Shown here piece after piece: positions 5,744-35,319 of a stretch of 39,380 bases of DNA; positions within the stretch are counted from its first letter, which is position 1; each line of letters opens with the position of its first letter. The notes beneath the pieces are model-generated. The model did no database searches and was not told the origin of the DNA. It worked only from the letters and a program-made list of their open reading frames with translations. Source of the DNA: Rubrivivax sp. (GTDB lineage: Bacteria > Pseudomonadota > Gammaproteobacteria > Burkholderiales > Burkholderiaceae_C); assembly GCA_020720385.1 (NCBI GenBank), contig DYOR01000019.1:1-39380 (forward strand). Reading direction: 5' to 3'. Both the position numbers and the translations under genes were made by a program.

Positions 5744-5829
5744 ACGCGGCATCGCGGAACGAGGAGGTGGCCGGGGCGACCCGGCGACCCCATCCCGGTC
5801 ATCGTCCACGCCTCGAGGAGGAGATGTTC

Positions 5830-14826: not shown

Positions 14827-15732
14827 TCAGCGGTGGGTGGCGCCCAGAAAGGGCAGCACCCGCGCGAGCAAGGCCTCGGGCGCCTCCTCGGCGATGTAGT
14901 GGCCGCAGGGCAGGGCGCTGCCCTGCACGTCGTCGGCCACGCGCTGCCACTCGGCCAGCGGCTCGAAGCAGCGCTGCACCACGCCTTGTTCGCCCCACAG
15001 CGCGAGCAGCGGCATCGCCAGGCGGCGCCCCGCCGCACGGTCGGCGCGGTCGTGTTCGAGGTCGATGCCGGCGGCGGCGCGGTAGTCCTCGCACATGGCG
15101 TGGGCTGCGCCTGGCTGGCGCAGGCTGCGTTCGTACGCCGCCAGCGCGCGCGGGTCGAAGGGGGAAAGGCCGGCGCTGCGCCGGCCCATCACGTCGCGCA
15201 GGTAGGCGCCGGGGTCGGCCTCGATGAGGCGCTCGGGCAGCGGTGCGCTCTGGATGAGGAAGAACCAGTGCCAGTAGGCGCGGGCAAAGGCCTCGCTGGT
15301 CTGCTCGTACATGGCCAGGGTGGGCGCGATGTCCAACAGCACCATGCGGCCCACGGCCTGCGGGTGGTCCATGCCCAGACGGTGGGCGACGCGCGCGCCG
15401 CGGTCGTGGGCGAGCACGTCGAAGCGCGCGTGGCCCAGCGAGCGCATCAGCTGCAGCATGTCGCGCGCCATGGTGCGCTTGCTGTAGTTGCCGTGGTCCG
15501 CCTCCCCCGCGGGCTTGGCGGAGTCGCCATAGCCGCGCAGGTCGGCCATGACCAAGGTGAAGTGCCGGGCCAGCTCCGGCGCCACGCGGTGCCAGATGGC
15601 GTGGGTCTGCGGGTGACCATGCAGCAGCAGCAGCGCCGGGCCGTGCCCGCCAGTGCAGGCGTGGATGTGCACGCCTTCATCGACGGGCACGTCGCAAGTG
15701 GTGAAACCGGGAAAGAGCGGGGTCGGTGTCAT
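14827..15732 (-). CDS. Alpha/beta hydrolase, predicted haloacetate (fluoroacetate) dehalogenase
   Basis: This 301-aa protein (start ATG 15732; a GTG 36 bases upstream is also possible) has LLLLHGHPQTHAIWH for the oxyanion loop, ADLRGYGDS, and nucleophile motif AHDRGARVAHRLGMDHP. Counted from ATG 15732, Asp110, Arg111, Arg114, Asp134, His155 and Trp156 fall at the numbers known for the fluoroacetate dehalogenase RPA1163. Tyr217 and His278 correspond to its Tyr219 and His280. The enzyme class hydrolyses haloacetates to glycolate through an aspartyl ester. The gene starts 51 bases after the giant-protein operon ends and may be co-transcribed. Substrate specificity is inferred; epoxide hydrolase is the main alternative. 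Confidence 0.78.
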   Translation of the reverse strand: MTPTPLFPGFTTCDVPVDEGVHIHACTGGHGPALLLLHGHPQTHAIWHRVAPELARHFTLVMADLRGYGDSAKPAGEADHGNYSKRTMARDMLQLMRSLGHARFDVLAHDRGARVAHRLGMDHPQAVGRMVLLDIAPTLAMYEQTSEAFARAYWHWFFLIQSAPLPERLIEADPGAYLRDVMGRRSAGLSPFDPRALAAYERSLRQPGAAHAMCEDYRAAAGIDLEHDRADRAAGRRLAMPLLALWGEQGVVQRCFEPLAEWQRVADDVQGSALPCGHYIAEEAPEALLARVLPFLGATHR

Positions 15733-15783
15733 CGTCGGGTGCGGGGTGAGCACAGGCGAGGATGCCACGAGTGCCCCGGGCGC

Positions 15784-17724
15784 TCAGTTGATCGCCGAGC
15801 GCTTGCGCACGCTGTCGAAGCTCAGGCCGCTGTGGGACTCGCCCGTGCCTGACGTCTTGCTGCGGCCGATCCACAGGTAGGCACGGCCGTCGGAGGTGCG
15901 CGCGTACTGGAAGCTGCGGCGCACGATCGCGCCGGCGCGGGGCACCTCTTCCTCGGCCACAGCCAGGCTGTCGGTGGCCAGGGCGGCGCCCTGCGCGCCG
16001 GGGTCGACCTTGAGCAGCCGCCCGCGCGGGTGCAGCACGAACATCTGCACGCCGTTTTCCACGGCGGCCTCCTCGATGAACGTGTCCTGCAGGCGCAGCA
16101 GTTCGATGAACCCGGCGTAGGCCGGGTCGGCCATGAGGGCCGGCTCCACCGAATAGAAGCGCGCCATGCCGCCGCGCTGCAGCTTGACCGTGAAGCGCAG
16201 CGCGCCACCGTCGCCCTTGGGCACGAGCGGGATCCAGTGCGCCGGCACCTGCGTGGCCAGGCGGTAGACGAGCAGCGGGTCGTCGGGTGCCTCGGGCAGG
16301 CGTTGACGGAACGCCAGGTGGTCGGCCTCGAGCTTGCGGTCCAGCGGCTCGCCGCTCGTGCCCTGCACACGGCGCTCGATGCCCCAGGCAAGGTTGGCCA
16401 TTTCGTCGCGCACGAGCAGCAGTTCCTCCAGCGGCGGGCCTTCGAGCGTGCCGCTCAAGGTGTCGGGCAGGCACAGCGTGTCCTTCACCTCGGGGGCCAC
16501 GGCGCCGCGCGTGGCGAGCTCGAACATGCGCCACGGCGCGCCCGCCGCCGCGGGCAATGCGGCGTGGTCGGCGGCGCGCACCGTGGCCTCGACGCCGAAG
16601 GTGTCGCGCACCCTGAAACCGCCCAGGTCGTAGAGCGCACCCACCGGCAGATCCAGTGGCAGCAGGAACCAGTCGTTGCCGTAGGCCAGGCCGAACTCGG
16701 TCATGACCATGCGCACCACGCTCGCCGGCGAGGACTCGACGGCGGCGAAATTCACGCGCGCGTCCTCGAACTCCCAATACCGATCGGCGGGCATGCCCGG
16801 GTAGCGCACCGGCACGGGCAAGGCGTCGCGCAGCTTCACCACCGGCTCGGGTGGCGGCGCCGGGTTGGCCGCGCCTTCGGATTCGGCGACGAAGCTGTGC
16901 CAGTCGACGCGGCCGTCGGTGTATTCGTCGGCGCGCAGCGCGACATCGCGCGCGCGGCCCTTGGCGTAGAGCGAGAAGGCGTACTCGAAGCGTTCCTTGC
17001 GCCACGAGGCGTTGTCGGCCGCACCTTCATGCACCAGGGTGTCCAGCCATTGCAGCCAGGCGTCGAGCACCGCCAGCGCGTCGGCAACCTCGACTATCGG
17101 CAGCGGCAGCTCGGCCGGCACCGCGGCGAGGTGGCCGTCGGCGCCGCGCAGGGGTGCGAGCACGCCCGCCACCTTGGCCGCACTGATGCTGCGAGCGGCG
17201 AGCAGCAGATGCCACTGCTCGCCGGCCAGGTCGCTTTGCGGGTCGTCGGGTGCGCGCAGGTCCAGGGCGAAGTCCGGGCCACGCAGCGTGGCGACGAGCC
17301 CGGCAAGCCCGCGCGCGCGCGCCCGGCGCAGCAGGTTCAAGCCGGCTTCGCCGTCCAGGCGCGCGTGCGCGGCCAGCGCGGGCTCGGCCTCGACGCGCAC
17401 TTCGATGGGCGCGCCGCCGTCCTCCAGTGCCACCGTCTGCGCCAGCGTGGCGCCGGGGCCGGGGGCAAAGCGGTCGATGGGCGAGGCGTGGACATCGATG
17501 TCCACGCCGATCGGCGTGCCGGCATCCTCGCCGCGCAGCTCGTTGAACTGCCACTGGCGGCCGATGAGCCACAGCGGGTCGGCCAGCGGCGCCGACAGGC
17601 CGTCGTCGAGCTGGGGCGAGATGGGCGAGGTCTCGATGCGCGCGAATCCGGTGATCGTCGGCTTCACCGGCTCGAGCAGGTGGAGGTCCACCGAAACCAT
17701 GGCCTTGGGCAGCATGTAGAGCAT
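15784..17724 (-). CDS. Conserved giant-operon protein A, function unknown
   Basis: This 646-aa protein begins MLYMLPKAMVSVDLHLLEP; an in-frame ATG at residue 4 or 9 is possible. AAGGTC lies 8 bases upstream, and the gene starts 12 bases after the preceding stop. I recognise no domain, but DPLWLIGRQWQFNELRGEDA (about 49-68) recalls conserved hypothetical proteins I cannot name. No signal peptide, membrane helix or catalytic motif is evident. The middle is acidic and mixed alpha/beta (YWEFEDARVNFAAVESSP, then EFGLAYGNDWFLLPLDLPVG). It is the last and smallest gene of the four and probably acts with B, C and D as one cytoplasmic complex. Confidence 0.7.
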   Translation of the reverse strand: MLYMLPKAMVSVDLHLLEPVKPTITGFARIETSPISPQLDDGLSAPLADPLWLIGRQWQFNELRGEDAGTPIGVDIDVHASPIDRFAPGPGATLAQTVALEDGGAPIEVRVEAEPALAAHARLDGEAGLNLLRRARARGLAGLVATLRGPDFALDLRAPDDPQSDLAGEQWHLLLAARSISAAKVAGVLAPLRGADGHLAAVPAELPLPIVEVADALAVLDAWLQWLDTLVHEGAADNASWRKERFEYAFSLYAKGRARDVALRADEYTDGRVDWHSFVAESEGAANPAPPPEPVVKLRDALPVPVRYPGMPADRYWEFEDARVNFAAVESSPASVVRMVMTEFGLAYGNDWFLLPLDLPVGALYDLGGFRVRDTFGVEATVRAADHAALPAAAGAPWRMFELATRGAVAPEVKDTLCLPDTLSGTLEGPPLEELLLVRDEMANLAWGIERRVQGTSGEPLDRKLEADHLAFRQRLPEAPDDPLLVYRLATQVPAHWIPLVPKGDGGALRFTVKLQRGGMARFYSVEPALMADPAYAGFIELLRLQDTFIEEAAVENGVQMFVLHPRGRLLKVDPGAQGAALATDSLAVAEEEVPRAGAIVRRSFQYARTSDGRAYLWIGRSKTSGTGESHSGLSFDSVRKRSAIN

Positions 17725-17736
17725 GGCGTGGACCTT

Positions 17737-20700
17737 TCAGATCTTGCCCAGGGCGACCGTCTTGCTCGCCAGCGCGGCGTACTTGTGCGCCATCTGCCAG
17801 AGCTCGACGCTGGGCACCTCGGCGCCGAAGTGCTGCGGCAGGAAGTTGGCCGGCAGGAAGACACCCAGCCCGGCGACGAAGTCCTTGGGCCGCACGCAGC
17901 GCAGCTGCGCCAGGTCGAAGGCCTCGTGCACCGTGGCCAGCACCTCGTCGAAGCTCCACTGCGCCATCACCGCGCGCGGCGGCACGGCGAGCAGCACGGC
18001 CTGCGGCGGGCGCGCGCCCGGTGCGTCGTAGTGGAAGGCCACGCCGGTGGTCTGCATGCGCTCGGGGATGACCTCCTGCCACTCGTCGAGGCTCAGTCCG
18101 GCCAGCGGCGTGTCGGCATCCAGGCCTGCCAAGGCGTCGGCGCCGGCGGCGACCACCGCCAGCTGCGGCACGGCCTTGCGGATATCTTTGCCCGCCCAGG
18201 CCTCGGGCCGCGCGGCCCAGGCCTTGCCCTCGACGTGGGGCAGTTGCCACGCCACCAGATCGTCGGCCAGGCTGCTCTCGTGCAGCGCCTCGTGCGCGGT
18301 GAGGGCGGCATCCAGCCGGTCGGCGCCGGCGCGCACGCGCGCCAGCTTGGGCAACCAGCCGGCGAGCGCAAACGCGTCGTCGCCGAGCAGCGCCGCACGG
18401 TCGGCGAGCGACGCGGCCACCGAGGCCGCGTAGGGCCCGAGCGTGAACAGCGGCAGCACCGGGAAGTCCTTGCCGAAGACGAGCTTGATGCGGTCGATGG
18501 CCATGCCGATGGCCTCGGGCAGGGTGGGCTCGCGCTCTTCAGCCGGCGTGCGCCCGCGCGGCGGCAGGCGCGCCGAGCTGGCCAGGCGCTCGTCGATCTC
18601 GAGCACGACGCGGTCACGCCGCGCGCGGTGCTCGTCTTGCCAGCGCGCCTGCGCCGCTGCCTCGACCGGGGGCATGTCGGGCTCGGATTCGCGCAGGCCG
18701 AAGGGCCAGCAGGCGCGCAGGGCCATGGTGATGGCGTCGTCGTCGAGCGCGGCATCGACGAGGGTCTGCCTGGCGTTGCCCAGCAGGGTCAGCGCGGTGG
18801 CGGCGCGGCCTTCGATCTCCGCCGCATCGACGCCGGCGTAGTCGCCCTGGTCGCTCTGCGTGGCTTCGAGTTCGTCCTTGGGCACGACGAGGTCGTGCCG
18901 GTTCAGGGCGCGCACCCCCGCCACCAGTGCACGCACGCTGCCCGCCAGCGCCTCGAACTCGGCCAGGCCGGGGAGTTCGCCGGCGCCGTTGCGCTCCAGG
19001 ATCTCGAGCTGCAGGTCGGCGGCGTTGCCCGCCGCGCGCACGAAGGCCTCGGCGAGCCAGCGCCGCAGCGGCGCGGCGCGCACGCCGGCCTCGCCCGGGT
19101 GCAGGGCCGCGCCCAGCACCAGCGACAGGGGGCCGCGCTGCAGGTCCGCCGGCGTGAGCACGATCTCGCCGTCGAGCGCCCCGTGGCGCGTCTTCAGCGC
19201 CTTGAAGGCAAAGCCCGCAGGCGCACCGAGCAGGCGTGCCACGGCGGCGTCCAGGCGCGGCTCGATGGTGCTGCGCGGGTCTCCCGCGGCGGCGCCGGCC
19301 CAGGCTTGCGGCAGCGGCGCGCTGGCGCAGAGCAGCATCAGGCGCTGCGCGTACGACACGCCGCCGCGCGGCGTTTGCGTCACCTGCGGCGAGATCGGGC
19401 TGGCGTGCGCGTCGAGCATGGCCGCCGCGGCGGCCGCACGCTCGAGGTTGTTCTGCGCCAGCTGGTAGACGCTCTCGGCGACCATCACGTCGCTCACCGC
19501 GTCCCAGGTTTCGGCCAGGTCGGCGAGCAGCGGGCGCAGGGCGGGCTTGTCGGCGTTGGCGACGAAGCCCAGCACCGCAGCGTCGCCGCCGGTGCGCCAG
19601 GCGTCGAGGAGCGCCAGGCCATCGACGACATCGCGCGCGGCGATGGCTTCGGCAGGCTGCTCGGCCAGTGTCGTGCCGGCGGCGCGCAGCGGGTAGCGCA
19701 GGCGGAAGTCGAGGATGTACTGCGCGCCGACGAAATCCGTCGTCTCGCGCAGTGCGCGCTCGAAGCGGTAGCCGAGCAGTGCCGCCGGGCTCTGGCCGCG
19801 CTCGATGCCCTCGACCAGGTCGCGCGCCTTTTGCACCCGAGCCGAGCTCAGGTCGATGTTGAAGGCCTCGCCGCCGCGCTCGGCATTGGCGAGGAAGCCG
19901 CTGCGCAGCAACGCCGCCGCGGCGGCCTGCGTCAACGACGGCGCATGCGTGTAGCCCAGGCTGTCAGGCGCGATGTCGCGCTGCAGGTTCTCGACGAAAC
20001 CGTAGGCGCCCAGGTGCAGGCCCAGGGGCTGGCCGGCCTGTTCACGTGCCTGGCGCACCTGTGCGAGGCGCTTGGAGGCCAGGCCGGTGATCCACGCGTC
20101 AATGCGGTAGGAGAAGGTGTCGAGCGTCAGGCGAAACGCCAGGTCGAGTTCGCCCACCTCGAGCGGCGCGAGGTATCTGAGGCTCGCGCGCACGGCGCCG
20201 GTGTGGCGCCAGACGAAGGGCAGGCCCGCGTGGTAGTCGAGGAAGGCGCGCCCCGCGCCATGCCCGGCCACGGCCGCGTCCAGGGCCGGGGCCGTGTTGA
20301 GCGCACCCGCCACATGCGCCTCGATCGTCTTGCCGCCCGTCAGCGCCGGGATCTTCAGGTTGTTCAGCGCCCGCGTGGAGCCGACTTCCTGGAACGAGGC
20401 GGGCGCCGCCGGCGCTGCGATGCCGACGAACGACGGGGTCGACTTCGACAGTGCCAGGCTGCTCTTGGCGTGGGCATGCGGGCCTTCGGCCAGGGCGGTG
20501 TCGACCAGGCGCAGGCCGCTGCGGTCGAATTCCTCCTCGGCGGAGAAGGCGAGCAGCGCCTCGAGCAGCGAGTCGCCGTTCTGTTGCTGCGAGAGCTTCG
20601 ATTTCGCCTGCGCCTCGTCGCCCAGCGCGGCCTCGATGGTGGCGATGAACGGCGGGTCCAGGGCATCGCCGGCGGCGCGCGGCTTCTTCCTGTCCTTGGG

Positions 20701-22518
20701 GTCGGCCTGCACCCAGGGCACGTAGCCGAGGTCGTGGTCCTGCACGTCGTGCACCACGTGTTCGAGCAGCACCTCGACCCCCTGCTGGATGCCGAAGGCG
20801 GCGAGCATGTCGCGCACGATGGGGGCCTTGCTCTGCGTCTGCGCGGCGCCGTACTGCGTGGTCAGGCCGTTGACGATGACCGACTTGTTGGGGTTCTCGA
20901 TGTTGCGGAACTTGGCCACCGCCGACCAGGGGCCGCTTTGCACCAGCTCGCGCACCTCGTCGAGCTTGTTGCCGTCGACGCGCGGCACGCTGGCCAGCGC
21001 CTGGCCCCAGGCCGGGCGCAGCAAGCCCAGCACCTTGAAGACACCTGTTTCGATGCTGTCCTGCGGCTCGTACTGCGCGGCCACCGGCAGCACGCCGTAG
21101 GGCTGCTTGCCGATGCGCAGCACGGGCAAGGGCCCGCCGGGCCGCACCCAGCCGACGGCAAAGTTGCGTGTGGCGTCGATGGCGGCGTCGCTGACGTAGG
21201 TCTCGTTGATCTGCGAGACGTTCCACATCTCGTCGAGGTAGCGCCCGAAGGTGCCGCGCCACAGCGCGTTGATCATGTGCATCTGCGTGCGCTGTTCGGC
21301 GAGCCCCGCGCCGGCCACCATCTCGGGCCGCAGCAGCTGGCCGCGCAGGCCCAGGGCGCGCAGCGTCAGGTCGTAGGCGTCGGTGGCGCCGGCTGCGGGC
21401 ACGGGTTGGGCCTCGGCGGGGGGCGGCGGCACCTCGCCCGAGTTGCGCGCCGCGGCGCCGCGGCCGGTGTTGTTGGTGGCCGTGCCCAGCGGCGCGAAGG
21501 CCATGCCGTGGCTCGCGGCGTGGCCTTCGAGCAGTTCTTCCAGCGCATCGGCCGCAGCGTCGGGCGCGAGCGTCCAGTCCACGCCCACGACCACCAGGCG
21601 CTCCAGAGGCGAGCCCCAGGCGAAAGGCTGCGCGTCGTGGCGTTGCTGCAGTCGCCGGGCGACATGCGCGGCGGTGATGGACAAGCCCATGCCGACCTTC
21701 ACCGCCTCGTCGAACTTGCGCATCCATTCGCGGTCGGGCCCGAACAGCGCGTCTTTGGCCGGCCCGGTGGTGGCGAGCGCCGGGTCGAGCTCGGGGCTCA
21801 TGGGCAGGATGTCGGGCACGTTGGCGCCCCACTCGCGGAACACCTCGCGCCGCCCGGGCGCATAGCCCACGGCACAGAAGCGGTCGGGCAGGAGCATGGC
21901 GTAGGACTGGCGCGAGAGCGTGGTCACGGCCTGGGCTTCGTCGGGGTTGGCCGGGTCGGTGGCGCGCACGATGAACTGCGCGCGCGGTGCCCGATACGCG
22001 GCCACGAGGCGGCGCCACACGGTCTCTTCCTTGCCCACGCCGGCCCCGGCCTCGGCCCAGTACTCCTGCCCGCCGCGCCGCTCCGCGTCTGTCAGGCCGC
22101 GCAGGTGGCGCATGACGTGGATGGTGTCGGGGTAGATGCGGACCGCCAGGCGCGTGCCCTGGTCCAGGTAGCGCGTCTCCAGGCGCACGGGGAGCAGGGC
22201 GATGGGCACGTCGCCACTCAGTGCCTGCACCATGTCGGCGGGGTCGCGCTGCTCGAGCAGGCGCTCGGAATGCTGGCGGATCTGGTCGACCAGGCCCGTG
22301 CGACCGCCCGCCACCGCGGCGAGCGCGGCCTCGCCCTGAGTCACCGCCTGCTTCAGCGCGTCGACGCGAAAGGCCGCGTCGCCTTGCGCCAGCGCCGACG
22401 CCAGCGCGCCGCGCGCCAGGGCCACCTCGACGCGCGCCGCGTCCAGGCGGCGCTGCGTCTCGGCCAGCGCCGCACGCGCCTGGGCTATCGGTCCACGGGC
22501 TATGGGCAGCAGGGGCAT
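17737..22518 (-). CDS. Conserved giant-operon protein B, 1593 aa, function unknown
   Basis: The start at ATG 22518 (MPLLPIARGPIAQARAALAE) has AAGGAGAGAG just upstream; the frame is open much further back inside gene C but without this support. Residues about 10-90 look like a coiled coil (RRLDAARVEVALARGALASA). ALLPVRLETRYLDQGTRLAV and RIYPDTIHVMRHLRGLT (about 105-140) form a block I recall from large hypothetical proteins. The rest holds many blocks such as RIGKQPYGVLPVAA and VEVLLEHVVHDVQDHDLGY, without an enzyme signature. No signal peptide or transmembrane segment is seen. It is the largest gene in the operon, 26 bases after C and 12 before A. Confidence 0.7.
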   Translation of the reverse strand: MPLLPIARGPIAQARAALAETQRRLDAARVEVALARGALASALAQGDAAFRVDALKQAVTQGEAALAAVAGGRTGLVDQIRQHSERLLEQRDPADMVQALSGDVPIALLPVRLETRYLDQGTRLAVRIYPDTIHVMRHLRGLTDAERRGGQEYWAEAGAGVGKEETVWRRLVAAYRAPRAQFIVRATDPANPDEAQAVTTLSRQSYAMLLPDRFCAVGYAPGRREVFREWGANVPDILPMSPELDPALATTGPAKDALFGPDREWMRKFDEAVKVGMGLSITAAHVARRLQQRHDAQPFAWGSPLERLVVVGVDWTLAPDAAADALEELLEGHAASHGMAFAPLGTATNNTGRGAAARNSGEVPPPPAEAQPVPAAGATDAYDLTLRALGLRGQLLRPEMVAGAGLAEQRTQMHMINALWRGTFGRYLDEMWNVSQINETYVSDAAIDATRNFAVGWVRPGGPLPVLRIGKQPYGVLPVAAQYEPQDSIETGVFKVLGLLRPAWGQALASVPRVDGNKLDEVRELVQSGPWSAVAKFRNIENPNKSVIVNGLTTQYGAAQTQSKAPIVRDMLAAFGIQQGVEVLLEHVVHDVQDHDLGYVPWVQADPKDRKKPRAAGDALDPPFIATIEAALGDEAQAKSKLSQQQNGDSLLEALLAFSAEEEFDRSGLRLVDTALAEGPHAHAKSSLALSKSTPSFVGIAAPAAPASFQEVGSTRALNNLKIPALTGGKTIEAHVAGALNTAPALDAAVAGHGAGRAFLDYHAGLPFVWRHTGAVRASLRYLAPLEVGELDLAFRLTLDTFSYRIDAWITGLASKRLAQVRQAREQAGQPLGLHLGAYGFVENLQRDIAPDSLGYTHAPSLTQAAAAALLRSGFLANAERGGEAFNIDLSSARVQKARDLVEGIERGQSPAALLGYRFERALRETTDFVGAQYILDFRLRYPLRAAGTTLAEQPAEAIAARDVVDGLALLDAWRTGGDAAVLGFVANADKPALRPLLADLAETWDAVSDVMVAESVYQLAQNNLERAAAAAAMLDAHASPISPQVTQTPRGGVSYAQRLMLLCASAPLPQAWAGAAAGDPRSTIEPRLDAAVARLLGAPAGFAFKALKTRHGALDGEIVLTPADLQRGPLSLVLGAALHPGEAGVRAAPLRRWLAEAFVRAAGNAADLQLEILERNGAGELPGLAEFEALAGSVRALVAGVRALNRHDLVVPKDELEATQSDQGDYAGVDAAEIEGRAATALTLLGNARQTLVDAALDDDAITMALRACWPFGLRESEPDMPPVEAAAQARWQDEHRARRDRVVLEIDERLASSARLPPRGRTPAEEREPTLPEAIGMAIDRIKLVFGKDFPVLPLFTLGPYAASVAASLADRAALLGDDAFALAGWLPKLARVRAGADRLDAALTAHEALHESSLADDLVAWQLPHVEGKAWAARPEAWAGKDIRKAVPQLAVVAAGADALAGLDADTPLAGLSLDEWQEVIPERMQTTGVAFHYDAPGARPPQAVLLAVPPRAVMAQWSFDEVLATVHEAFDLAQLRCVRPKDFVAGLGVFLPANFLPQHFGAEVPSVELWQMAHKYAALASKTVALGKI

Positions 22519-22544
22519 GGCTCTCTCCTTGCGCGCGCACGCGC

Positions 22545-25500
22545 TCAGGGCAACAGGTCGGTGCCGATGTAGTAGGCGCGGAAGGGGCGTTGCAGCAAGG
22601 CCTTGGCCACGTCCGCGGCATGTGCCGAGTTCAGCAGCGACACCGGCCGCGCCGGCACCTGCGGCGTGGCCGGCGGCGCCGCCACCAGGTCGTTCAGGCG
22701 CAGGAAGCGGCGCGCCACGTTGGCCGGCAGCACCTGGTTCCAGGTCACGTCCTTCCAGCCGCCACCGCCGCTGGTGAGGCGGCCGCTGTCGGGCTCGTCG
22801 AAACCGAAGCGCGGTTCGGTCATCTGCTCTTCGAGCACGAAGCACCACTTGGCGACTTCGGCCTTGGCCTGCACGGGGTCGACGATGGGAATGTCGAAGC
22901 CCACGTAGACCAGGTCGGGGGGCAAGGGGCCGGCGAAGATCGGCCGCTTGACGATCATGTCCAGCGTCGCCGGCGGGCTGATGCCGGGCTCGGCCACGCT
23001 GAAGTCGGCGGGCTGGCCCAGCGAGTTCTTCGCCGGGTGCTTGCGCTGCGCATAGATGGTGAGGTTGGGAAAGCGCTTGATGAGCGTGGCGCGGATCACG
23101 AGCACGAGCTTGTCGCCGCCGGTGGCCGGGGGCGGGGGCGGCTGGTGCCCCAGGGCGAAGGCGGCATTCCAGGTGTGCAGCTCGCGGATGTCGGGCTGGT
23201 CGTCGAGGCGGTCCCAGAAGTGGCGCATCGGCGTGCCGCGCTGGTCCGTGGGGAAGCCGCGCCAGAGCAGCTCGCGCGCCATCTCGTGGTTGATGCCCAC
23301 CATGAACGACTCGATGAAGCGGTTGTTGGTGCGCGCCAGCACGAGGAAGTCGTTGGGGATCGCGTTCGCCCCGGGCATCATGGCTTCGGCGTCCATGCGC
23401 GCCAGGCGTACGGCCATCGGCTCCTCGAGCTTGGGAAAGGCCATGACGCGGTCGAAGAGCCGCGGCAGCACGAAGCGCACATCGGTGAACGCCGCCGCGC
23501 TGGCCAGGGCCGAGGCGATGAAGGGGTTGGACAAGCTGCGCGTCGCGGCGTCGAAAGCCAGCGCGCTGCCGCCGATGGAGAGCGTGGCGGCGAGGCGCGC
23601 GGGCACGGTGAGCTCGGGGTCGGTGCGCCGGCGCATTTCTCTCGCCACCGCCGCCAGCGGGAAGTCCAGCGCCTTGACCTTCACCCCGGCCTCGGCCAGC
23701 GGCGAGAACCACAGGCGGTTCACGTCCTTGAGCGCGGCCGTGAAGCGCGCCAGGGTGGCGCGGTCGTGCAGTGGCGCGGCGACGGTCACGGTGGCTGCGC
23801 CGGCGGGCAGGGCCACCGCGGCCTGGCCCTGGAACAGGCCCGCCAATGCCGACGCCGCGTTGGAGCCGATGGCGATGGGCACGGCCTGCTGCGCCAGCGG
23901 CAGCGAGTTCACCGGCAGGGTGGAGAAGATCGCCGCGTTGCCGAACTGGCCCACCTGCTGCGAGACCACCGTGCCGAAGCCCGAGCGCAGCGCGGCGGCT
24001 CGCGTGGCACGGCTGCGCGCCAGCTTGCGTTGGCGCAGTCCCGCACCGAAGGCCTGGATCGCACCGGTGCGCCCGTCGATGCGCAGGGGCACGACGGCAG
24101 CCTGCGCCAGGCCCTGCTTGTCGCTCAGCGCGATGAGCACGCCCTCGCTGCGCCGCACGTCGGCGTCGGCCTGCACCCGGCGCGCGATCTCGGCCAGCGG
24201 AATGCGCACCGTGGCGGTGGCGGAGAGTTGCGCGAAGCGGATGAAGTGCGCCTCGGTGAGCACACCCTGTGCGGTGGCGGGTTTGAGCTTGGGGCGCCAC
24301 GCGGCGCCTTCGCCCTTGGCCTGGTCGTACCACTGGCGGGCGGACTGCCCCGCAGCCTGCATCGCCTGCAGCTGGTCGGCGCGCAGGCTGCCGGCGAGGC
24401 CGATGGGCGAGAGGTCGACGAGCGCCGCGGGGTCGGCCGGCAGCGCCAGCCGGTCGTAGCTCTTGCTGCCGAGGATGCCGTCGGGCACGTAGCGGTTGGG
24501 GTCGATGGCGTGCGGGTTGCTCGAGCCCTTGACCAGCGTGGCCACCATGCCGGCCACCTGCGTGGCCACCGATGGGCCGGCGGCCTGGCGCACGGCGGCC
24601 TTGAGGGCCGGGCGTTGCGCGCTGGTGAGGCGGCGCAGGCCCGGGTCGGCGACGGCATTGGGCACGCTGGTGGCGCGGATGCGCGCATGCACGGTCTCTT
24701 CGGCGGCGACGCGGATGCGCGAGGCCGCCGGGCCGGCGACGGCGAGAAGGCGGTCGTCGGGCAGCTTCTTCAGCTTGGCGTGCAGCACGCGCTGCACTTC
24801 CTTGGCCATGGCGGCGCGGGCCAGCGCGCGCTCGATGCGCAGCACCTCGCCCACCTGGCTCCAGCAGGCGTCCATGAAGGCCTCCTGGTTGGCGCGCACG
24901 ACCTCGGTGCCCTTGCCGGCGGCGGCACGAAAGCGCGGGTCGCGGTTCAGCTCGTTGAGCCAGCGCCCCGGCGTGGCGTCGACGACATGCTTGCGCGCAT
25001 GCCAGGCGCCGTAGATCGGCGGCGCCACGGTGGGCGCGCGCTCGGGTGCGGCGGCCGAGATGAGCTGCGTCTGCGGTGCGTTGACGATGGTCTGCAGCTT
25101 GCCGGCGACGTCGTCGCGCGCATGCGGCTCGCTGGCGTAGCTCACCGAGGTGAGCGCGCCCTCGTAGAGCGGGTTGATGGGCTGCGCGTCGGCGGTGAGC
25201 AGGCGGTCGGCGTCGACCGACATGGGCACGGTGCCCAGGGTTTGCAGGCGCTGCGTCAGCGTGGCGTCGCCGACATAGGCCTTGGGCGTCTTGATGCGCC
25301 GCGCCAGGGTCTCGAAGTCACCGGCCGGGCCGGTGGAGAACTCCCAGTGGAAGTACACCGGCAGCTCGACGTCGCCGACGAAGGGCCGCGTCCAGGCCGA
25401 TTGCAGCACCGGCGCCGCGTCGGCCTGCGCCATCAGGGGCTGGCCCAGGCCGCGCCGGCAGCCGACGTCGAAGGCCGGAACGAGGCAGGCGAAGTAGTTG

Positions 25501-26111
25501 TGCGAGGCCTCGAGCCGGCGCGGGCTGACCAGGCGCGAGACGTTGCGCTCGGGCTGCTGCGCCAGCTCGCCTTCGATCTGCGCCTTGGTCGTTGCGGCGG
25601 AGGTGGCCTGGGCATGGGCCCAGAGCCACGATTCGTCCAGGTCCGGCAGCTCGGTCTCGGCCACGTCCAGCGGCACGCGCACCGAAGGCAGCGGCACCGT
25701 GCTGCCACGCATGCGCGGCAGCGCCACGCGGGCGCGGTCGAAGACCACCAGCACGAGCCAGGGGCGCAGGCGCTGCGACGCGCCGGCCTGTGCCGGGGTG
25801 AACATCCAGGGGAAGTCCGGCGGGTCGAAGTCCACCAGCGCCAGGTAATTGGGTTCGAAGCTCGTGGCGTGGGGCTTGGGGTCGGTGCGCAGGATCAGCC
25901 GCGTGTCCAGGCCCACGATGTCGGCCGGGCCGAACAGGCGCAGTCCCACCTGGCCGGTGACCGGTGCCACCGCGTTGCCGTCGCGGTCGGCGGCGATGGT
26001 CAGGCCGAGCTGGATCCCGGGACGCGCCGCGATGCCCAGGGCATCGGGGGTTTGCACGGCACGCACCAGGCCGCGCCGGGCCCAGGGCAGGAAGCGGTAG
26101 TCGATGGCCAT
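22545..26111 (-). CDS. Conserved giant-operon protein C, 1188 aa, function unknown
   Basis: The start MAIDYRFLPWARRGLVRAVQ has GAGGAG upstream, and D ends 12 bases before. The first 300 residues are beta-rich (VGLRLFGPADIVGLDTRLIL, then LRPWLVLVVFDRARVALPRM). A helical centre follows. Near residue 930-970 is the most distinctive block, NNRFIESFMVGINHEMAREL followed by LWRGFPTDQRGTPMRHFWDR, which I recall from unnamed bacterial proteins. It ends LLQRPFRAYYIGTDLLP. There is no signal peptide or membrane helix. HEMARE looks like a zinc-peptidase HExxH-type motif at first sight but lacks the second His. Its partner proteins are inferred from the operon. Confidence 0.7.
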   Translation of the reverse strand: MAIDYRFLPWARRGLVRAVQTPDALGIAARPGIQLGLTIAADRDGNAVAPVTGQVGLRLFGPADIVGLDTRLILRTDPKPHATSFEPNYLALVDFDPPDFPWMFTPAQAGASQRLRPWLVLVVFDRARVALPRMRGSTVPLPSVRVPLDVAETELPDLDESWLWAHAQATSAATTKAQIEGELAQQPERNVSRLVSPRRLEASHNYFACLVPAFDVGCRRGLGQPLMAQADAAPVLQSAWTRPFVGDVELPVYFHWEFSTGPAGDFETLARRIKTPKAYVGDATLTQRLQTLGTVPMSVDADRLLTADAQPINPLYEGALTSVSYASEPHARDDVAGKLQTIVNAPQTQLISAAAPERAPTVAPPIYGAWHARKHVVDATPGRWLNELNRDPRFRAAAGKGTEVVRANQEAFMDACWSQVGEVLRIERALARAAMAKEVQRVLHAKLKKLPDDRLLAVAGPAASRIRVAAEETVHARIRATSVPNAVADPGLRRLTSAQRPALKAAVRQAAGPSVATQVAGMVATLVKGSSNPHAIDPNRYVPDGILGSKSYDRLALPADPAALVDLSPIGLAGSLRADQLQAMQAAGQSARQWYDQAKGEGAAWRPKLKPATAQGVLTEAHFIRFAQLSATATVRIPLAEIARRVQADADVRRSEGVLIALSDKQGLAQAAVVPLRIDGRTGAIQAFGAGLRQRKLARSRATRAAALRSGFGTVVSQQVGQFGNAAIFSTLPVNSLPLAQQAVPIAIGSNAASALAGLFQGQAAVALPAGAATVTVAAPLHDRATLARFTAALKDVNRLWFSPLAEAGVKVKALDFPLAAVAREMRRRTDPELTVPARLAATLSIGGSALAFDAATRSLSNPFIASALASAAAFTDVRFVLPRLFDRVMAFPKLEEPMAVRLARMDAEAMMPGANAIPNDFLVLARTNNRFIESFMVGINHEMARELLWRGFPTDQRGTPMRHFWDRLDDQPDIRELHTWNAAFALGHQPPPPPATGGDKLVLVIRATLIKRFPNLTIYAQRKHPAKNSLGQPADFSVAEPGISPPATLDMIVKRPIFAGPLPPDLVYVGFDIPIVDPVQAKAEVAKWCFVLEEQMTEPRFGFDEPDSGRLTSGGGGWKDVTWNQVLPANVARRFLRLNDLVAAPPATPQVPARPVSLLNSAHAADVAKALLQRPFRAYYIGTDLLP

Positions 26112-26123
26112 GGTGCGGGCTCC

Positions 26124-29100
26124 TCAGATCAGCGCTTCGAAGGCCTCGGCGACCTGGAAGTCGTCGGCCGCCAGCGTGGCCGCATGGGCCTTGGCGTTCG
26201 AGTAGGTGCTGGTGCCCGCGGCCACCGCCTTGGCCGTGCTGCGTTCGGTGACGCGGTAGCCTGCCGGGGCGACCTGCGCCTTGGCCAGGACCTTGGGTTG
26301 CAGGCGCTGGCGCAGCGGGCTGCGCGCCGCGCCGCCGAAGGCGTACATCCACTGCGCGTCGGCGAGCAGGCCGAGGTGGTGCGGGCTGATGCGCTTGGGC
26401 TCGTCGCTGGAGAGGTTGACCTCTTCGTAGTCGAAGCTCTCGCCGATGGCGGGGCCGCTGTCGAAGCTGTCCACCGCCACGGTGACGCCGGCCTCGTACT
26501 GCTCGAACGACGGGCCCTGCAGGCGGTCCTGCTCGGTGACGTCGAAGAACTGCGCGGCGGCGAAATGGTCCTTCACCGCGCTGGCGGGGAAACCACCGGC
26601 GCCGCCGGGCAGGGTGAGCGCCGGCAGACCGAAGCGGTTCGGCCCCGAAGGCCGCTTCGTGCCCAGGCGCTCGAGCGTGGCGTCCAGCGGGATGTACTTC
26701 TGGCGGAAGGTGAGCGGGCTGCGCGGGTGCGCCATCAGGTCGGTCACCCCCTCGACCTTGGCCAGGGTGACGAAGGCGTCCTCGGGGCGCGGCAGCTGCG
26801 CCGACCAGTTTTCGACCTTGCCGATCTGCCGCGCGAGCTCGAGCTCGACGGCCTCGGTGGGCGTGGGCGTGTCGACGGCGCTGCCCCAGCTCTCGTCGAA
26901 ATCGACACTGTGCTCGCCGAAGAAACCCAGGTCCACCGTGGCCTGGCCGGCGGCGCGCCAGCGGCCCGGCCCGGCCAGGGTGCCCTCGATGTGTGCGCCC
27001 AGGGTGAAGCCCAGCAGCATGACCTTGGCCCACAGGCGCATGTCGGCCTCGAAGTGCAGGCGCGGCTCGAGGTAGACGATGACGTCGTAGCCGAAACCCC
27101 CGTCGAAGCTGGCCACGCCGACATCGGCCCAGACGCGCAACTCGGAGCCGCCCTGCACGGTGGCCGAGGTGACGGCGAAATAGCCTTCGAACTTCACGCC
27201 GACGATGCCGATGGAGAAGCCCGCGCCGATGCGGTCCATCTTCGGCACGTCGTCGGGGATGTCCTTGAAGCCGGGGTGGAAGCCGCCGGCGCTGAGCAGG
27301 AAGCTGGGCTTGTCGCCGAAGCTGGCACGGAAGGCAAAGCTGCCGGTGAGGGTGATGAAGAGCACGCGCGAGTCGCGCAGCAGGCCGTCGAAGCCGACCT
27401 TGAAGGGGTCGAAGATGATGTAGCCAATGAAGTCGACCTGCAGGCGCAGGATCGCCAGGTCCTTGCTCACCAGCGGCGGGATCTGGATCAGCGCCTGGCC
27501 GAGGATGACGATCTTGGAGGCTTCGATGAGCACGCCGGCGCGGATCGTCACCAGGTTGGGCGTGCCCCAGCCGACCTCGAGCATCGGGCCGATGACGAAG
27601 CCGCCGCGCTGGGTGGGGAAGAGGGTGCGCAGGGTGTTGATGATCTGCGGCGCGTCGGCCACCGGGTTGGCGGGGAAGAGCACGGCGTCGAGCGCGCCGC
27701 TGGCCAGGCCCTTGGACAGCGCATCCGTGCTCACCGTGTGCTGCAGGCCGATGAGCCCGCCGATGCCGGTGAGGGTGAAGCCGAAGGACAGCTGGATGGG
27801 CGGGAAGTTGCCGAAGATGAGCAGCAGCAGCGACCAGCCGGCGTCGGCCACCTTGGTGTTGAGGATGGCGATGGCCTTGATGCCGATGGCCATCATGCGC
27901 AGCTCGAGCACGCCGGCGTATTCGCCCTTGTCCGGGTCGAGATAGACGTAGCCGCCACCGGCGACCACGCCGGCATCGAGCGACAGGCCCGCGCCATTGG
28001 GCGGCTTGAGCGCAAAGGCCACGTCGGGGTCGTTGCCGAAGAGCTTGCGCAGGCGCACGATCACGCCCAGGCGGTCCACCGAGCCCTTGAACGGCCCGAG
28101 CGAGATGCCGAAGGAGGCCGAGAGCTCGGCATCGATCTCGTTGAACGAGCCGTTGAGCGGGTCGATGCCCAGGTTGATGAGCATCAGCTCGAGCGGCCCG
28201 CTGGGGATCTTGGGCACGGGCAGCGAGACATGCAGCCCGGTGCCGTCTTTCATGTGCAGCCGGCCCTTGGCGTCGATCTGCGCTTCGACGGCGAAGTCCA
28301 CCGTGATGTCGCCAGAGAGCACTTCCTTGAGCAGCTTGTCTTCGATGACGAGCTTGATTTCGCCTTCACGCAGGAAGAGATCGAAGCGTGGCGCGAGCGA
28401 CTTGCCGGCGACCTTCAGCGCGAGCTGGATCGCCGCGCCGATCTCCTTGACTTGCAGCGCCGCGCTGCCGAAGCCGGCCAGGTCGACCGGGCCCATCTTC
28501 AGCGCGAAACCGTCGGTCTGCTTCTTCGACAGCTCGATGCCTATCGACGGGTCGGTGCCTTCGACCTCGGCCGCGCCGGGGGGCATCACGGGTTGGTACA
28601 CCTTCAATGCCGCGCTGCCCTCGAGCTTGACCTTGGCCGGGCCGGCGGCGGCCGCGGCGTCGAGGTTCAGCGCGGCATCGAACTGCACCCCCGAGGCGGC
28701 GGGCGGCAGCGCCGCGACCACGTTCAGGCTGAGCTTGGCCGGCCCGGCGGCAAGGCCGAAGGGCAGCACGATGGGCCCGAGCGCGCCGGGAGGCACGGCG
28801 GCGGCCATGGCCTGCGCCGACCAGCCGAAATCCGCCGCGGTGACGGCCTTGGCGAAGCTGCGATCGATCAGGCCGCCGGTAAGTGCGGTGAACAGGCCCA
28901 GGGCCGAGGCGGCATCGTCGATCTGCGCCTGGTTCGGGTTGCCGCCGACGGTGCTGCGGGCGACGAAATCGGCCAGTTGCTGCGCGTGGGACTGCCCGGC
29001 AGCGACGCTGGCGCGCGCATCGCCCGACATCGTGAGCATGAGCTTGGCCAGGCCGAAGGCGCTGGGGTAGCGCGCCGCGGCATCCACGCCCTTGACGATG

Positions 29101-29486
29101 CCGTCGACCTGAGCCACCACCTGGCCCACGACGCGGAAGATGTCCTGGCGCGCGGCGGCGCTCATGCCGCCCTCGGCCACCGCCTTGATGGCATCCACGG
29201 CGGCCTTCACCGTGTCCAGCGCAGCGAGGAATTCCGCGGCGATGAGTGCGGCCAGGGCAATGCCCTGTGAGGCTGCGCCGGCGCCCTGGAACTGCTCCAG
29301 CGTCAAGGCACTGCCCGCGGGCAATGGCGCATTCACGTCGATGCGGCCGAGCAGGGTCCAGAGCAACTTCTCGACACTCGCCCGCTGCGCCGCCACCGCC
29401 GGCGGTGCCGCGGCAAGCGCGTGGTCGACGGCTTCGCGGAACCACGCGTAGCTTTGCACGAATACCGGGTCGGGCTGGGTCGCCAT
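26124..29486 (-). CDS. DUF6603-type giant protein D, first gene of the operon
   Basis: This 1120-aa protein starts at ATG 29486 (MATQPDPVFVQSYAWFREAV); the frame is open 80 codons further up, but that part is non-protein-like. Residues 1 to about 230 are helical. From about 230 on it is a long series of alternating beta strands (KLSLNVVAALPPAASGVQFD, KVKLEGSAALKVYQP). The segment around 480-870 matches DUF6603 as I know it (PPNGAGLSLDAGVVAGGGYV, then YLDPDKGEYAGVLELR). The last 200 residues are a mixed tail. It has no signal peptide. The strand pattern could form an elongated hydrophobic groove or barrel, which is a guess. Family moderately sure, function unknown. Confidence 0.75.
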   Translation of the reverse strand: MATQPDPVFVQSYAWFREAVDHALAAAPPAVAAQRASVEKLLWTLLGRIDVNAPLPAGSALTLEQFQGAGAASQGIALAALIAAEFLAALDTVKAAVDAIKAVAEGGMSAAARQDIFRVVGQVVAQVDGIVKGVDAAARYPSAFGLAKLMLTMSGDARASVAAGQSHAQQLADFVARSTVGGNPNQAQIDDAASALGLFTALTGGLIDRSFAKAVTAADFGWSAQAMAAAVPPGALGPIVLPFGLAAGPAKLSLNVVAALPPAASGVQFDAALNLDAAAAAGPAKVKLEGSAALKVYQPVMPPGAAEVEGTDPSIGIELSKKQTDGFALKMGPVDLAGFGSAALQVKEIGAAIQLALKVAGKSLAPRFDLFLREGEIKLVIEDKLLKEVLSGDITVDFAVEAQIDAKGRLHMKDGTGLHVSLPVPKIPSGPLELMLINLGIDPLNGSFNEIDAELSASFGISLGPFKGSVDRLGVIVRLRKLFGNDPDVAFALKPPNGAGLSLDAGVVAGGGYVYLDPDKGEYAGVLELRMMAIGIKAIAILNTKVADAGWSLLLLIFGNFPPIQLSFGFTLTGIGGLIGLQHTVSTDALSKGLASGALDAVLFPANPVADAPQIINTLRTLFPTQRGGFVIGPMLEVGWGTPNLVTIRAGVLIEASKIVILGQALIQIPPLVSKDLAILRLQVDFIGYIIFDPFKVGFDGLLRDSRVLFITLTGSFAFRASFGDKPSFLLSAGGFHPGFKDIPDDVPKMDRIGAGFSIGIVGVKFEGYFAVTSATVQGGSELRVWADVGVASFDGGFGYDVIVYLEPRLHFEADMRLWAKVMLLGFTLGAHIEGTLAGPGRWRAAGQATVDLGFFGEHSVDFDESWGSAVDTPTPTEAVELELARQIGKVENWSAQLPRPEDAFVTLAKVEGVTDLMAHPRSPLTFRQKYIPLDATLERLGTKRPSGPNRFGLPALTLPGGAGGFPASAVKDHFAAAQFFDVTEQDRLQGPSFEQYEAGVTVAVDSFDSGPAIGESFDYEEVNLSSDEPKRISPHHLGLLADAQWMYAFGGAARSPLRQRLQPKVLAKAQVAPAGYRVTERSTAKAVAAGTSTYSNAKAHAATLAADDFQVAEAFEALI

Positions 29487-32968: not shown

Positions 32969-34177
32969 TCAGCCCACGCGCGCGAAGAAGCGCTCGCGCG
33001 CCAGGGCCGTGCTGCGCCGGCCATCGCCGCGCCGCCACTCGAATTCCGCCGCCGCGCGGCCGCGCAGCGGGCCCCATGCGGCCGGCGGCACCGGCCGCGC
33101 CAGCGGCTGCCCGTCCAGTGCGATGAGCTCGTCGCCGGCACGCACCCCGGCGGTCGCCGCCGGGCCGCCGGCCAGCACCTGTTGTGCCACGAGCCGGTCT
33201 CCCGCGGTCGCCAGCACGACGCCGAACCCGCCCGGCAACGACGTGCCGGCGGCGGCCGTGGTCCATGCGCTGCGCCGCGTGGCATCGAAGCCTAGCGCAG
33301 CGTGCTCGAACAAGGCCATGCCGACCGCGCCTACCACCCCGTGCAGCGCGACCGACGCGCCGAGCGGGGACGCGGGCAGCAGCAGTGCCGGCACGTCACT
33401 CCACGCGGCCGGCCCGATGCTCAGCCGCGCCAGCAGCACGGCCGTCACCGCGGTGCGGCCACCGACACCGTCGACCTGGATGCGTGCACCACCGCCTGCG
33501 GTGCGGCCCAGCGCCGTGGCGACGTCGCCCCACAGCATCAGCGCGCCGGCGAAGCCGGTATCCAGCAGCAGCGGAGCCGGCGCACGTTCACCCCACTGGC
33601 CATCGACGACCGGCAGCACCGAGGCGCCGCTCCACGGCATCTGCAGCGCGACCCCAGGCGGCGCGAGGGCCTCATCGCCACGGCTCCACCGGCCGGCGGG
33701 CGGCTCCAGCCGCCAGGGCAGGGTGGCCAGCGTGGGCCAGCCGACGATGCCCTGCACCGGCTCGCCGGCCGCGGCGCCATGCGCGCCGAGATCGATCACC
33801 GTCGCCTCCCGCAGCGCCAGGCAGGTGCCGGCGGCGCACAGGCCGGGCGGCTCGACGATGGGCGCAGCCGCCACCCGCCCGCCAGGGGCGCGCAGGTCGC
33901 GCGAGCCGCGCTGGCGCAGGCCCAGGCGAAGCGCCAGGCCGGTGTGCACCGCGGCGGCCTCGGCGCCCGTGTCCAGCAGCCAGGCGCCGGTGGCCGTGCC
34001 CTCGGGGCCGCTGGCGTGTGCATCCAGCACCGCCAGCCCGCCGATGTCGCCCAGCGCCAGCCAGCGTAGCGGCCCGGTCGCGCGCTCTGCCTGGGGCGCG
34101 GCCGTGCCTGGCCAAGCCGCAGCGGCCAGCGCCTGCAGCACGCGCCGGCGCGGCACGGCGGCCTCACGCAGCGTCAC
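32969..34177 (-). CDS. Exported aspartic-protease-like protein with PDZ domain
   Basis: This 402-aa protein starts with GTG 34177, overlapping the TIR gene stop as GTGA. A twin-arginine-like leader (RRRVLQALAAAAWPGTAAPQ) suggests export. Two retropepsin-type motifs, GAWLLDTGAEAAAVHT (Asp69) and LLLDTGFAGALMLW (Asp206), resemble the two lobes of a pepsin-like enzyme in one chain. The C-terminus is a PDZ domain (LAGGPAATAGVRAGDELIAL, DGQPL, about 325-375). Similar aspartyl protease plus PDZ proteins occur in many bacteria, mostly uncharacterised. Coupling to a cytoplasmic TIR protein is unusual. Protease activity is inferred from both DTG motifs being intact. Confidence 0.8.
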   Translation of the reverse strand: MTLREAAVPRRRVLQALAAAAWPGTAAPQAERATGPLRWLALGDIGGLAVLDAHASGPEGTATGAWLLDTGAEAAAVHTGLALRLGLRQRGSRDLRAPGGRVAAAPIVEPPGLCAAGTCLALREATVIDLGAHGAAAGEPVQGIVGWPTLATLPWRLEPPAGRWSRGDEALAPPGVALQMPWSGASVLPVVDGQWGERAPAPLLLDTGFAGALMLWGDVATALGRTAGGGARIQVDGVGGRTAVTAVLLARLSIGPAAWSDVPALLLPASPLGASVALHGVVGAVGMALFEHAALGFDATRRSAWTTAAAGTSLPGGFGVVLATAGDRLVAQQVLAGGPAATAGVRAGDELIALDGQPLARPVPPAAWGPLRGRAAAEFEWRRGDGRRSTALARERFFARVG

Positions 34178-35094
34178 GTGATCTCCCGTTCCAGGGCTGC
34201 AATGGTCTGCGTCGAGCGACGTGAGAGTTCGTCCAGCGCCGCGCCGGCGTGCGCCAGCACGGCGTCACGCTGCGCCTGGTCGTCGGCTGCGGGCACCTGC
34301 GGCGGATCGGTGACCATCAGCGCGTGCACGATCTCGTGGATGCGATTGAGGGCGAACATCTCGCCGCGGTAGACCTGCTCGATGCGCTCGGTGAGCGCGC
34401 GCACGTCATCGCACAGGCCACGGTAGCGCGACCACGCGGCGGTGATGCGGTCGCGGTGCGCGCCGAGGTGCGCGATGAAGGGATCGGCGGCCTCGTTGTA
34501 CAGGCGCACCGATTCGCGCACGTGCTCGCAGGCCTGCGGGTTGGTGGTGAGCACGTCGAGCGCATTGCCCAGCGAGGCGCGCCACTGGAACGCGGCCTGC
34601 TTGTAAGCGGTGAGCTCGCGCGAGAAGGCCTCCAGCAGCGAGCGGCGCGCGGTGCTGCGCAGCGATTCCACCAGCAAGCTGGCGTGGAAGAACAACTGCT
34701 CCGAGAGTTCGGCCGCCGCCCGCGCGACGCCGGCGGGCGATTTGTCGGGCGCCATCAGGTACAGCCGCTTGTCCAACTGCGGGATCTCATGCAGCCGCTC
34801 GCGCACGTCTTCGAGCAGCACCGGAATGACGAAGGTGCGGCCGAGGCTTGCCTCGCGCTCCAGGCCCCAGGCCACTTCGCGCGGAACCCAATCGCGCGAC
34901 AGCGCTGCATCGTCGAGGAAGACCACCATGTAGTCGCAGGTCTGCGCGATGGCGTCCTCGATGCGACGGCTGAACTGTTCACCGGCGGCCATCTGTTCCT
35001 TGTCGAGCCATCGGTCCACGTGGGCGGGCAGGCCTGCAGCAATGCGCTCGACGACGGGCTTGGACTCGCTGGCGTGGCTGAGGAACAGTCGCAT
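34174..35094 (-). CDS. TIR domain protein
   Basis: This 306-aa protein starts at ATG 35094 (MRLFLSHASESKPVVERIAA), where the TIR fold begins. Residues 1 to about 135 are a TIR domain: FLSHASE, then DRWLDKEQMAAGEQFSRRIE, CDYMVVFLDDAALSRDW, VPREVAWGLE. Trp69 to Glu73 forms the WxxxE motif holding the catalytic glutamate in NAD-cleaving TIRs such as SARM1. The C-terminal half (about 150-306) is helical and unrecognised, perhaps a sensor or oligomerisation part (ALTERIEQVYRGEMFALNRI). It overlaps the protease-like gene by 4 bases. Bacterial TIR proteins often act in anti-phage defence by NAD depletion or signalling; that role here is inferred. Confidence 0.85.
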   Translation of the reverse strand: MRLFLSHASESKPVVERIAAGLPAHVDRWLDKEQMAAGEQFSRRIEDAIAQTCDYMVVFLDDAALSRDWVPREVAWGLEREASLGRTFVIPVLLEDVRERLHEIPQLDKRLYLMAPDKSPAGVARAAAELSEQLFFHASLLVESLRSTARRSLLEAFSRELTAYKQAAFQWRASLGNALDVLTTNPQACEHVRESVRLYNEAADPFIAHLGAHRDRITAAWSRYRGLCDDVRALTERIEQVYRGEMFALNRIHEIVHALMVTDPPQVPAADDQAQRDAVLAHAGAALDELSRRSTQTIAALEREIT

Positions 35095-35319
35095 GCCTGC
35101 ACTGTGAGGCGCGGCACGCCGGCTCGTCAAGCGCCCCGGCCGCCCTGCGCGGTGGGGGCCAGGCGCCGCCCGCCTTTCAGCGAGCGGGTTGCGGCCAGCG
35201 GGCGATCCGCGCCCGGCGGTGTGCGAGCTGCGCGACGGCAGCGATCCTGGAGCGCGCACAGGCGGGGCGTGTCGCCGCTCCCCTTATCCTCCCGTGTCTT
35301 CCACACGCCGAGTCGCTTC

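Follow-up and report, generated by a model that had tools for sequence, protein, structure and literature searches.

What do four giant genes encode that lie together on one strand of a bacterial genome, three of them resembling no known family? The question is raised by a stretch of DNA from Rubrivivax sp. (39,380 nucleotides of contig DYOR01000019.1, assembly GCA_020720385.1; the window hereafter), in which genes D, C, B and A follow each other in that order of transcription. An earlier note on this DNA had taken them to imply one large machine and to be its strongest candidate for an undescribed system. The analysis described here establishes D-C-B-A as a conserved unit of four genes, the proteins of which evolve in step. 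A common gene order, in-step evolution and apparent joint transfer all support the existence of one system, and its being a machine, in the sense of a physical complex, is a further step that we infer.

Four genes under purifying selection

The unit and its conserved parts, all on the minus strand, are as follows (aa, amino acids).

Gene D, 26124-29486, minus strand: 1120 aa, DUF6603 protein, first gene in the unit
DUF6603 core of D (residues 429-986), 26529-28202, minus strand: Pfam match, β-amphipathic
Gene C, 22545-26111, minus strand: 1188 aa, two-part protein whose N-terminal third is common to c, its partner in a second class of operon (class II, below)
Conserved C-terminal block of C, 22548-23510, minus strand: NHEMxRELLWRGFPTDxRGTP, FVLEExMTEPRFGFD and QRPFR, from an alignment of 12 sequences
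Gene B, 17737-22518, minus strand: 1593 aa, without known family
Gene A, 15784-17724, minus strand: 646 aa, without known family, motif DPLWxLxRQWQxxEFxGEDAG

These open reading frames (ORFs) match exactly the genes, lengths, coordinates and gaps given in the earlier note, with 12, 26 and 12 bases between D and C, C and B, and B and A, respectively. Of the Shine-Dalgarno-like sequences that it placed before C, B and A, those of C (GAGGAG) and B (AAGGAGAG) stand, and the site before A is a weaker AAAGG, which also precedes D. The start of D at 29486 agrees with that of its homologues (MATQPDPVF in loci L034, L035 and L042), and a longer in-frame ORF reaching 29726 is also present. Nothing useful came from scans for promoters, terminators, Rfam families or tRNAs.

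The minus-strand frames are real genes under purifying selection. When the window is compared with its nearest relative, L042, substitutions at codon positions 1/2/3 number 55/26/203 in D, 79/43/212 in C, 115/83/359 in B and 40/28/139 in A, and the ratio of nonsynonymous to synonymous substitution rates (dN/dS) is 0.12 for D, 0.18 for C, 0.19 for B and 0.14 for A; it is 0.19-0.30 against L035, and 0.32 (C) and 0.22 (D) against L034. The plus strand of the same region contains long ORFs of 2180 and 2349 aa, which are most likely artefacts of high GC content because substitutions concentrate at minus-strand third codon positions and dN/dS lies at 0.12-0.19.

A fixed gene order across Bacteria and Archaea

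Relatives were recruited through B, by scanning genome contigs with two short peptide patterns drawn on an alignment of this protein, or through plasmid matches, and the test is what adjoins each match. The contig scan produced 13 loci, from Burkholderiales, other proteobacterial metagenome-assembled genomes and Sulfuriferula multivorans TTN. Among PLSDB plasmids, tblastn queries with A, B, C and D matched 15, 13, 13 and 16 records, and 13 of the 18 records matched by any query were matched by all four; these come from Streptomyces (five, three of them S. longwoodensis), Nocardia, Rhizobium lusitanum, Paraburkholderia caribensis, Gemmatirosa and four haloarchaea.

In 23 of 25 tabulated loci at least two members lie together (all four in 17/25), and every one of these 23 has the order D>C>B>A on a single strand, the carriers being Pseudomonadota, Streptomyces, Nocardia, Gemmatirosa and four haloarchaea. 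The two remaining loci are a 3.5 kb contig with B only (L039) and a Streptomyces anthocyanicus plasmid with A alone (L058). The same order is found in L070, L071 and a scaffold filed as phage (L060). Recurrence in the same order in unrelated genomes, which the earlier note had named as support for a system, is thus observed in both Bacteria and Archaea. The scatter of homologues that it had named as refutation is mostly absent, the exceptions being 2 of the 15 A-bearing plasmid records, which lack B, C and D matches (S. anthocyanicus and Natrinema caseinilyticum, the latter with a partial A, 25% covered).

The four-gene unit is also rare and patchy. DUF6603 was found in 9 of 398 Pseudomonadota genomes and A in only one of the 398, the window's own. 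At the level of the order, 3 of 300 genomes had C, the window's among them; at that of the class, the D profile matched 5 of 274, some of which are class II. Second D matches are present on Natrinema and Halobellus plasmids. A phage or viral origin was rejected, as D had no confirmed match in viral_contigs or phages. The sole A match in the phage collection is L060 (MT835531.1, filed as 'Bacteriophage sp.', UNVERIFIED), which holds A, B and C plus the end of D in the usual order and which, read from its ORFs, looks like an actinobacterial chromosomal scaffold; in IMG/VR one short A fragment was matched.

In-step evolution and apparent transfer as one cassette

Family alignments were built from rows judged clean (17 loci for C, 19 for A, 18 for B and 20 for D), and distances were compared for the 14 taxa present in all four, with L034, L036, L041, L050, L051, L053, L055 and L058 left out. 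Pairwise protein distances among A-D are correlated with r values of 0.962-0.985, or 0.866-0.933 when L035, L042 and L046 are removed (11 taxa), and 0 of 2000 permutations reached the observed value in any comparison; such a correlation also arises from common species history and is alone no proof of interaction. In a midpoint-rooted concatenated tree of 18 taxa, each with three or all four of the genes, three haloarchaea group with Streptomyces europaeiscabiei and S. longwoodensis (support 0.95), Paraburkholderia and Nocardia fall together (support 1.00), and Rhizobium is drawn next to Streptomyces NBC_01724 with no support value printed; some deep nodes are weak (0.69, 0.73). Because the distances agree and the tree conflicts with taxonomy, the four genes seem to move as one unit. 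These comparisons point to movement of the entire cassette from one lineage to another, probably also across domains of life.

A second class of operon and a candidate core

The remaining eight loci with DUF6603 in the phylum sample have a different arrangement, class II, in which a DUF6603 ORF of ~1,500 aa or ~3,250-3,400 aa is followed by genes called c and y and, in 4 of the 8, by z. In hhalign the c family aligns with the N-terminal part of C at a probability of 97.9 (E 6.3e-13, profile positions 53-305), and by the same kind of profile comparison y and z match neither A nor B. The D-c-y arrangement was also found in Paenibacillus polymyxa and on two Embleya plasmids, and with z in genome G677. 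A relative of C or c follows DUF6603 in 9 of 9 phylum genomes with a match and in 16 of 16 D-matched plasmid records, 14 of which were inspected as sequence and two, S. longwoodensis duplicates, by match coordinates. Because D and the N-terminal part of C are paired even where unrelated giants replace B and A, it is likely that these two elements form the core of the system. Class II operons at L016-L025 and L072 encode a single DUF6603 protein of at least ~3,250 aa, and a conserved gene of ~250 aa precedes such operons in five genomes.

Features of the four proteins

The match of D to DUF6603 (PF20248) scores 377.7 bits against a curated cut-off of 27 (E 1.1e-112 in Pfam, 6.4e-114 in a second search), which makes D a clear member, as had been proposed; the family is described only as a 'family of unknown function', with neither the four-gene context nor the two operon classes. 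No Pfam, NCBIfam or PADLOC family was found above threshold for A, B or C. For A and C no family was returned and for D only DUF6603, so no catalytic family was recognised; B has a sub-threshold match to DUF4254 (E 0.14), and its 19-row alignment matched no Pfam family at E 0.01. A hydropathy scan of 76 homologue rows, a heuristic judged by eye in place of a trained predictor, revealed no obvious membrane helix or signal peptide, and the top 19-residue mean stayed below 2.0 in all rows except one haloarchaeal A (2.52). The searches therefore agree with the earlier description of A, B and C as unannotated and of all four proteins as having no recognisable signal peptide, membrane helix or catalytic motif.

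Profile comparison detected no likeness among A, B, C and D, and no relative of solved structure had E <0.1. Predicted structures of D and of the C-terminal block of C (pLDDT, a per-residue confidence score, of 34 and 44) were too poor for use, and a Foldseek search of the PDB with the latter gave no match at E <= 0.001. The DUF6603 core has a β periodicity (z 3.7-8.3) in 20 of 20 homologue rows and a glycine content of 11-14%; this alternation indicates β structure and nothing beyond. A P-loop-like pattern occurs in 3 of 20 D rows. The histidine of the NHEM motif in C was considered as a catalytic residue and rejected, since L035 has Q and genome G548 has F at this position. One C homologue (G548:C67) contains one in-frame TAG.

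Comparison with known systems

No known kind of system fitted the features examined, which does not by itself imply a new function. Clear similarity of A-C to a characterised machine, which the earlier note had set against its own proposal, did not appear in family or solved-structure searches. None of 5.39 million PMC texts, a scope that excludes subscription papers and preprints, names DUF6603 or PF20248, and phrase searches there returned nothing on the four-gene system.

Tc toxin complexes and contractile injection systems offer an analogy, as multi-gene sets of giant signal-less proteins with hydrolases. No Tc-family Pfam domain was reported for A-D at E up to 1, and the sheath gene of contractile injection systems (the type VI secretion system, extracellular contractile injection systems and tailocins) was not detected in the window's genome: PF05943 (VipB) and PF04984 (Phage_sheath_1) had no match in this genome (G000, 93% complete) or in that of Sulfuriferula (G657). 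Over 11 genomes, PF05943 was positive in 2 and PF04984 in 1.

A partial likeness exists to conflict systems of another kind. In Kaur et al. (2020; PMC7159879), the caspase domains of VMAP systems are described as always having an α/β-hydrolase neighbour, and nucleoside triphosphate (NTP)-dependent ternary conflict systems as using exchangeable trypsin- or caspase-type peptidases. The Sulfuriferula protein described below, which joins a caspase domain to an α/β-hydrolase-like part, resembles the VMAP pairing as presented there. A linked caspase or trypsin effector is not common to the relatives compared, being seen in Sulfuriferula (caspase) and, below threshold, in Gemmatirosa (Trypsin_2). No NTPase core of these systems (MoxR/vWA, STAND or GTPase) was recognised in A-D, the flanks not having been searched for NTPases as such; for lack of this core, membership in the NTP-dependent ternary conflict systems was rejected and the analogy alone kept.

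Enzymes encoded next to the unit

Several copies of the unit are flanked by genes for hydrolases. A PhoD-like phosphatase lies directly upstream of D in Salinigranum (L047) and in genome G921 (L070), and a PhoD-related protein with a peptidoglycan-binding domain takes this place in S. longwoodensis (L050, 8984-13528), where the metal-binding motifs of the other two look degraded. In Paraburkholderia the position is occupied by a GDSG-bearing protein without a Pfam match that is related (E 2.8e-9) to a trypsin-like protein of Gemmatirosa, whose Trypsin_2 genes lie at least 1.4 kb from D and score below the cut-off. Halalkalicoccus and Natrinema have a 900-aa protein of unknown family there. A metallo-β-lactamase-fold gene precedes the class II DUF6603 gene in L064, and in L012 its score is just under the cut-off.

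Downstream of A, Sulfuriferula encodes a protein with a caspase domain (motifs SGHG and DCCHSG); its N-terminal half, without a Pfam match, has a GHSLG motif, by which it may be read as an α/β hydrolase. Papain-like, amidase and patatin genes follow further downstream. The genes found after A elsewhere include an S8 (subtilase) gene in Nocardia, a WD40 gene in Streptomyces NBC_01724 and pentapeptide repeats in S. europaeiscabiei. Among the window and the six relatives compared, whole flanks are common to sister genomes only (L037 with L046, and the upstream flank of L042 with the window).

What the unit may do

One model that could accommodate these features places the four proteins in the cytoplasm, joined in a single large complex of mainly structural character, the core of which would be D together with the N-terminal part of C. 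The complex would probably hold, or on a trigger release, an exchangeable hydrolase encoded nearby in some genomes, candidates being the PhoD-like phosphatase, the caspase with its α/β-hydrolase-like part, the trypsin-like or subtilase proteases and the metallo-β-lactamase-fold protein. Its purpose would most likely be conflict, as defence against mobile elements or attack on competitors, over housekeeping. In the window's lineage the hydrolase, if needed, would have to come from a gene elsewhere, or the giants themselves would have to supply an activity in its place. A signal-less structural complex is favoured because no NTPase core, β structure only and no sheath or VipB were found, and we put the probability of this cytoplasmic complex, with exchangeable hydrolases and a role in conflict, at roughly one in three. 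That the operons represent a new machine of Bacteria and haloarchaea, with an invariant DUF6603 and C core, alternative partners (B-A or y, with or without z), a slot for different hydrolases and spread between domains of life as a single cassette, is a proposal whose chances we place a little short of even.

Several observations weigh against the proposed cytoplasmic conflict complex. No family of PADLOC 2.0.0, a set of anti-phage models, matched A-D at E up to 1, and the P-loop pattern is absent from the A, B and C rows. Hydrolases are not universal next to the unit, several linked-enzyme matches fall below curated cut-offs, and a six-frame comparison of flanks from the window, L035, L037, L038, L042, L044 and L046 found no common gene. 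Three copies have toxin-antitoxin or NB-ARC genes nearby and the neighbours of others are ordinary, in flanks that were not the object of a search aimed at defence systems. The window's own α/β-hydrolase gene (14827-15768), 15 bases after A, was rejected as a fifth member: tblastn found no relative in 32 fetched loci, and its HDRGAR motif, which we take to be typical of haloacetate dehalogenases, makes it look like a metabolic dehalogenase. In addition, the Rhizobium annotation (L049) divides C and B into two genes each, and in Halobellus (L055) they are spread over several ORFs, so the giants are not always single chains. Surface-protein domains in some homologues also fit an extracellular role better.

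These domains are the strength of one alternative, a complex at the cell surface or in the matrix that would serve adhesion or biofilm. A haloarchaeal A homologue (L047) ends in a lamin tail domain and two further A proteins are so annotated, two B homologues have haloarchaeal surface domains and one has inserted decapeptide repeats, one C is annotated with VCBS repeats, and in S. longwoodensis the peptidoglycan-binding domain noted above belongs to the protein encoded upstream of D; a paper on haloarchaeal biofilms (PMC5118699) mentions lamin tail domains in passages that are not about this operon. However, no signal peptide or anchor was recognised in the families, and the insertions were found only in haloarchaea and one Streptomyces species, so a surface complex appears improbable. 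Slightly less so, though still unlikely, is a particle of signal-less proteins that would leave the cell by lysis or some unknown route and carry hydrolases to other cells, in the manner of Tc toxins or extracellular injection systems while being unrelated to them. The giants without recognised signal peptides would suit such a particle, as would the papain-like, amidase and patatin genes of Sulfuriferula, two findings around the Paenibacillus operon (a phospholipase D (PLD)-like gene 2.5 kb after it, and baseplate V and DUF4280 genes ~9-12 kb before it), and GH25 lysozymes ~10 kb from A on the Rhizobium plasmid. It is at odds with the lack of sheath matches in the window's and the Sulfuriferula genome, with the absence of Tc-type Pfam matches in A-D and with the lack of a relative of D among viral_contigs or phages.

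The strong β amphipathicity and high glycine content of the DUF6603 core, together with patatin and PLD-like genes near some copies, could also suggest a machine for lipids or other hydrophobic ligands, in which the core is a large β groove or barrel and the linked hydrolases act on lipids. We consider this quite improbable, as the alternation reports β structure only, the predicted structure of D is not good enough to reveal a groove and many of the linked enzymes are proteases. Finally, chance proximity or simple co-transcription of four separate genes without joint function is strongly disfavoured: A does occur alone on one plasmid, but the fixed order in two domains of life, the congruent distances and the apparent joint transfer would be very hard to explain in this way.

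Whichever function applies, each carrier genome devotes coding sequence for ~4,500 residues to the unit, in an order fixed across Bacteria and Archaea, and most of it is annotated as hypothetical. Should the four proteins make up one machine, prokaryotes would have a large soluble assembly with no known role. The cassette also provides a direct handle on DUF6603, and its boundaries, core pair and two classes are now defined.

Other genes of the window

About 5 kb beyond D, a gene on the minus strand (34177-35259) encodes a TIR_2-domain protein (E 2.5e-16), possibly an effector or defence gene, and is adjoined by one for an aspartyl-protease-like protein with a PDZ domain (32972-34177, minus strand). 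On the plus strand, positions 4229-8977 hold a compact run of DUF4331, PEP-CTERM, TPR and HupE/UreJ_2 genes that looks co-transcribed.
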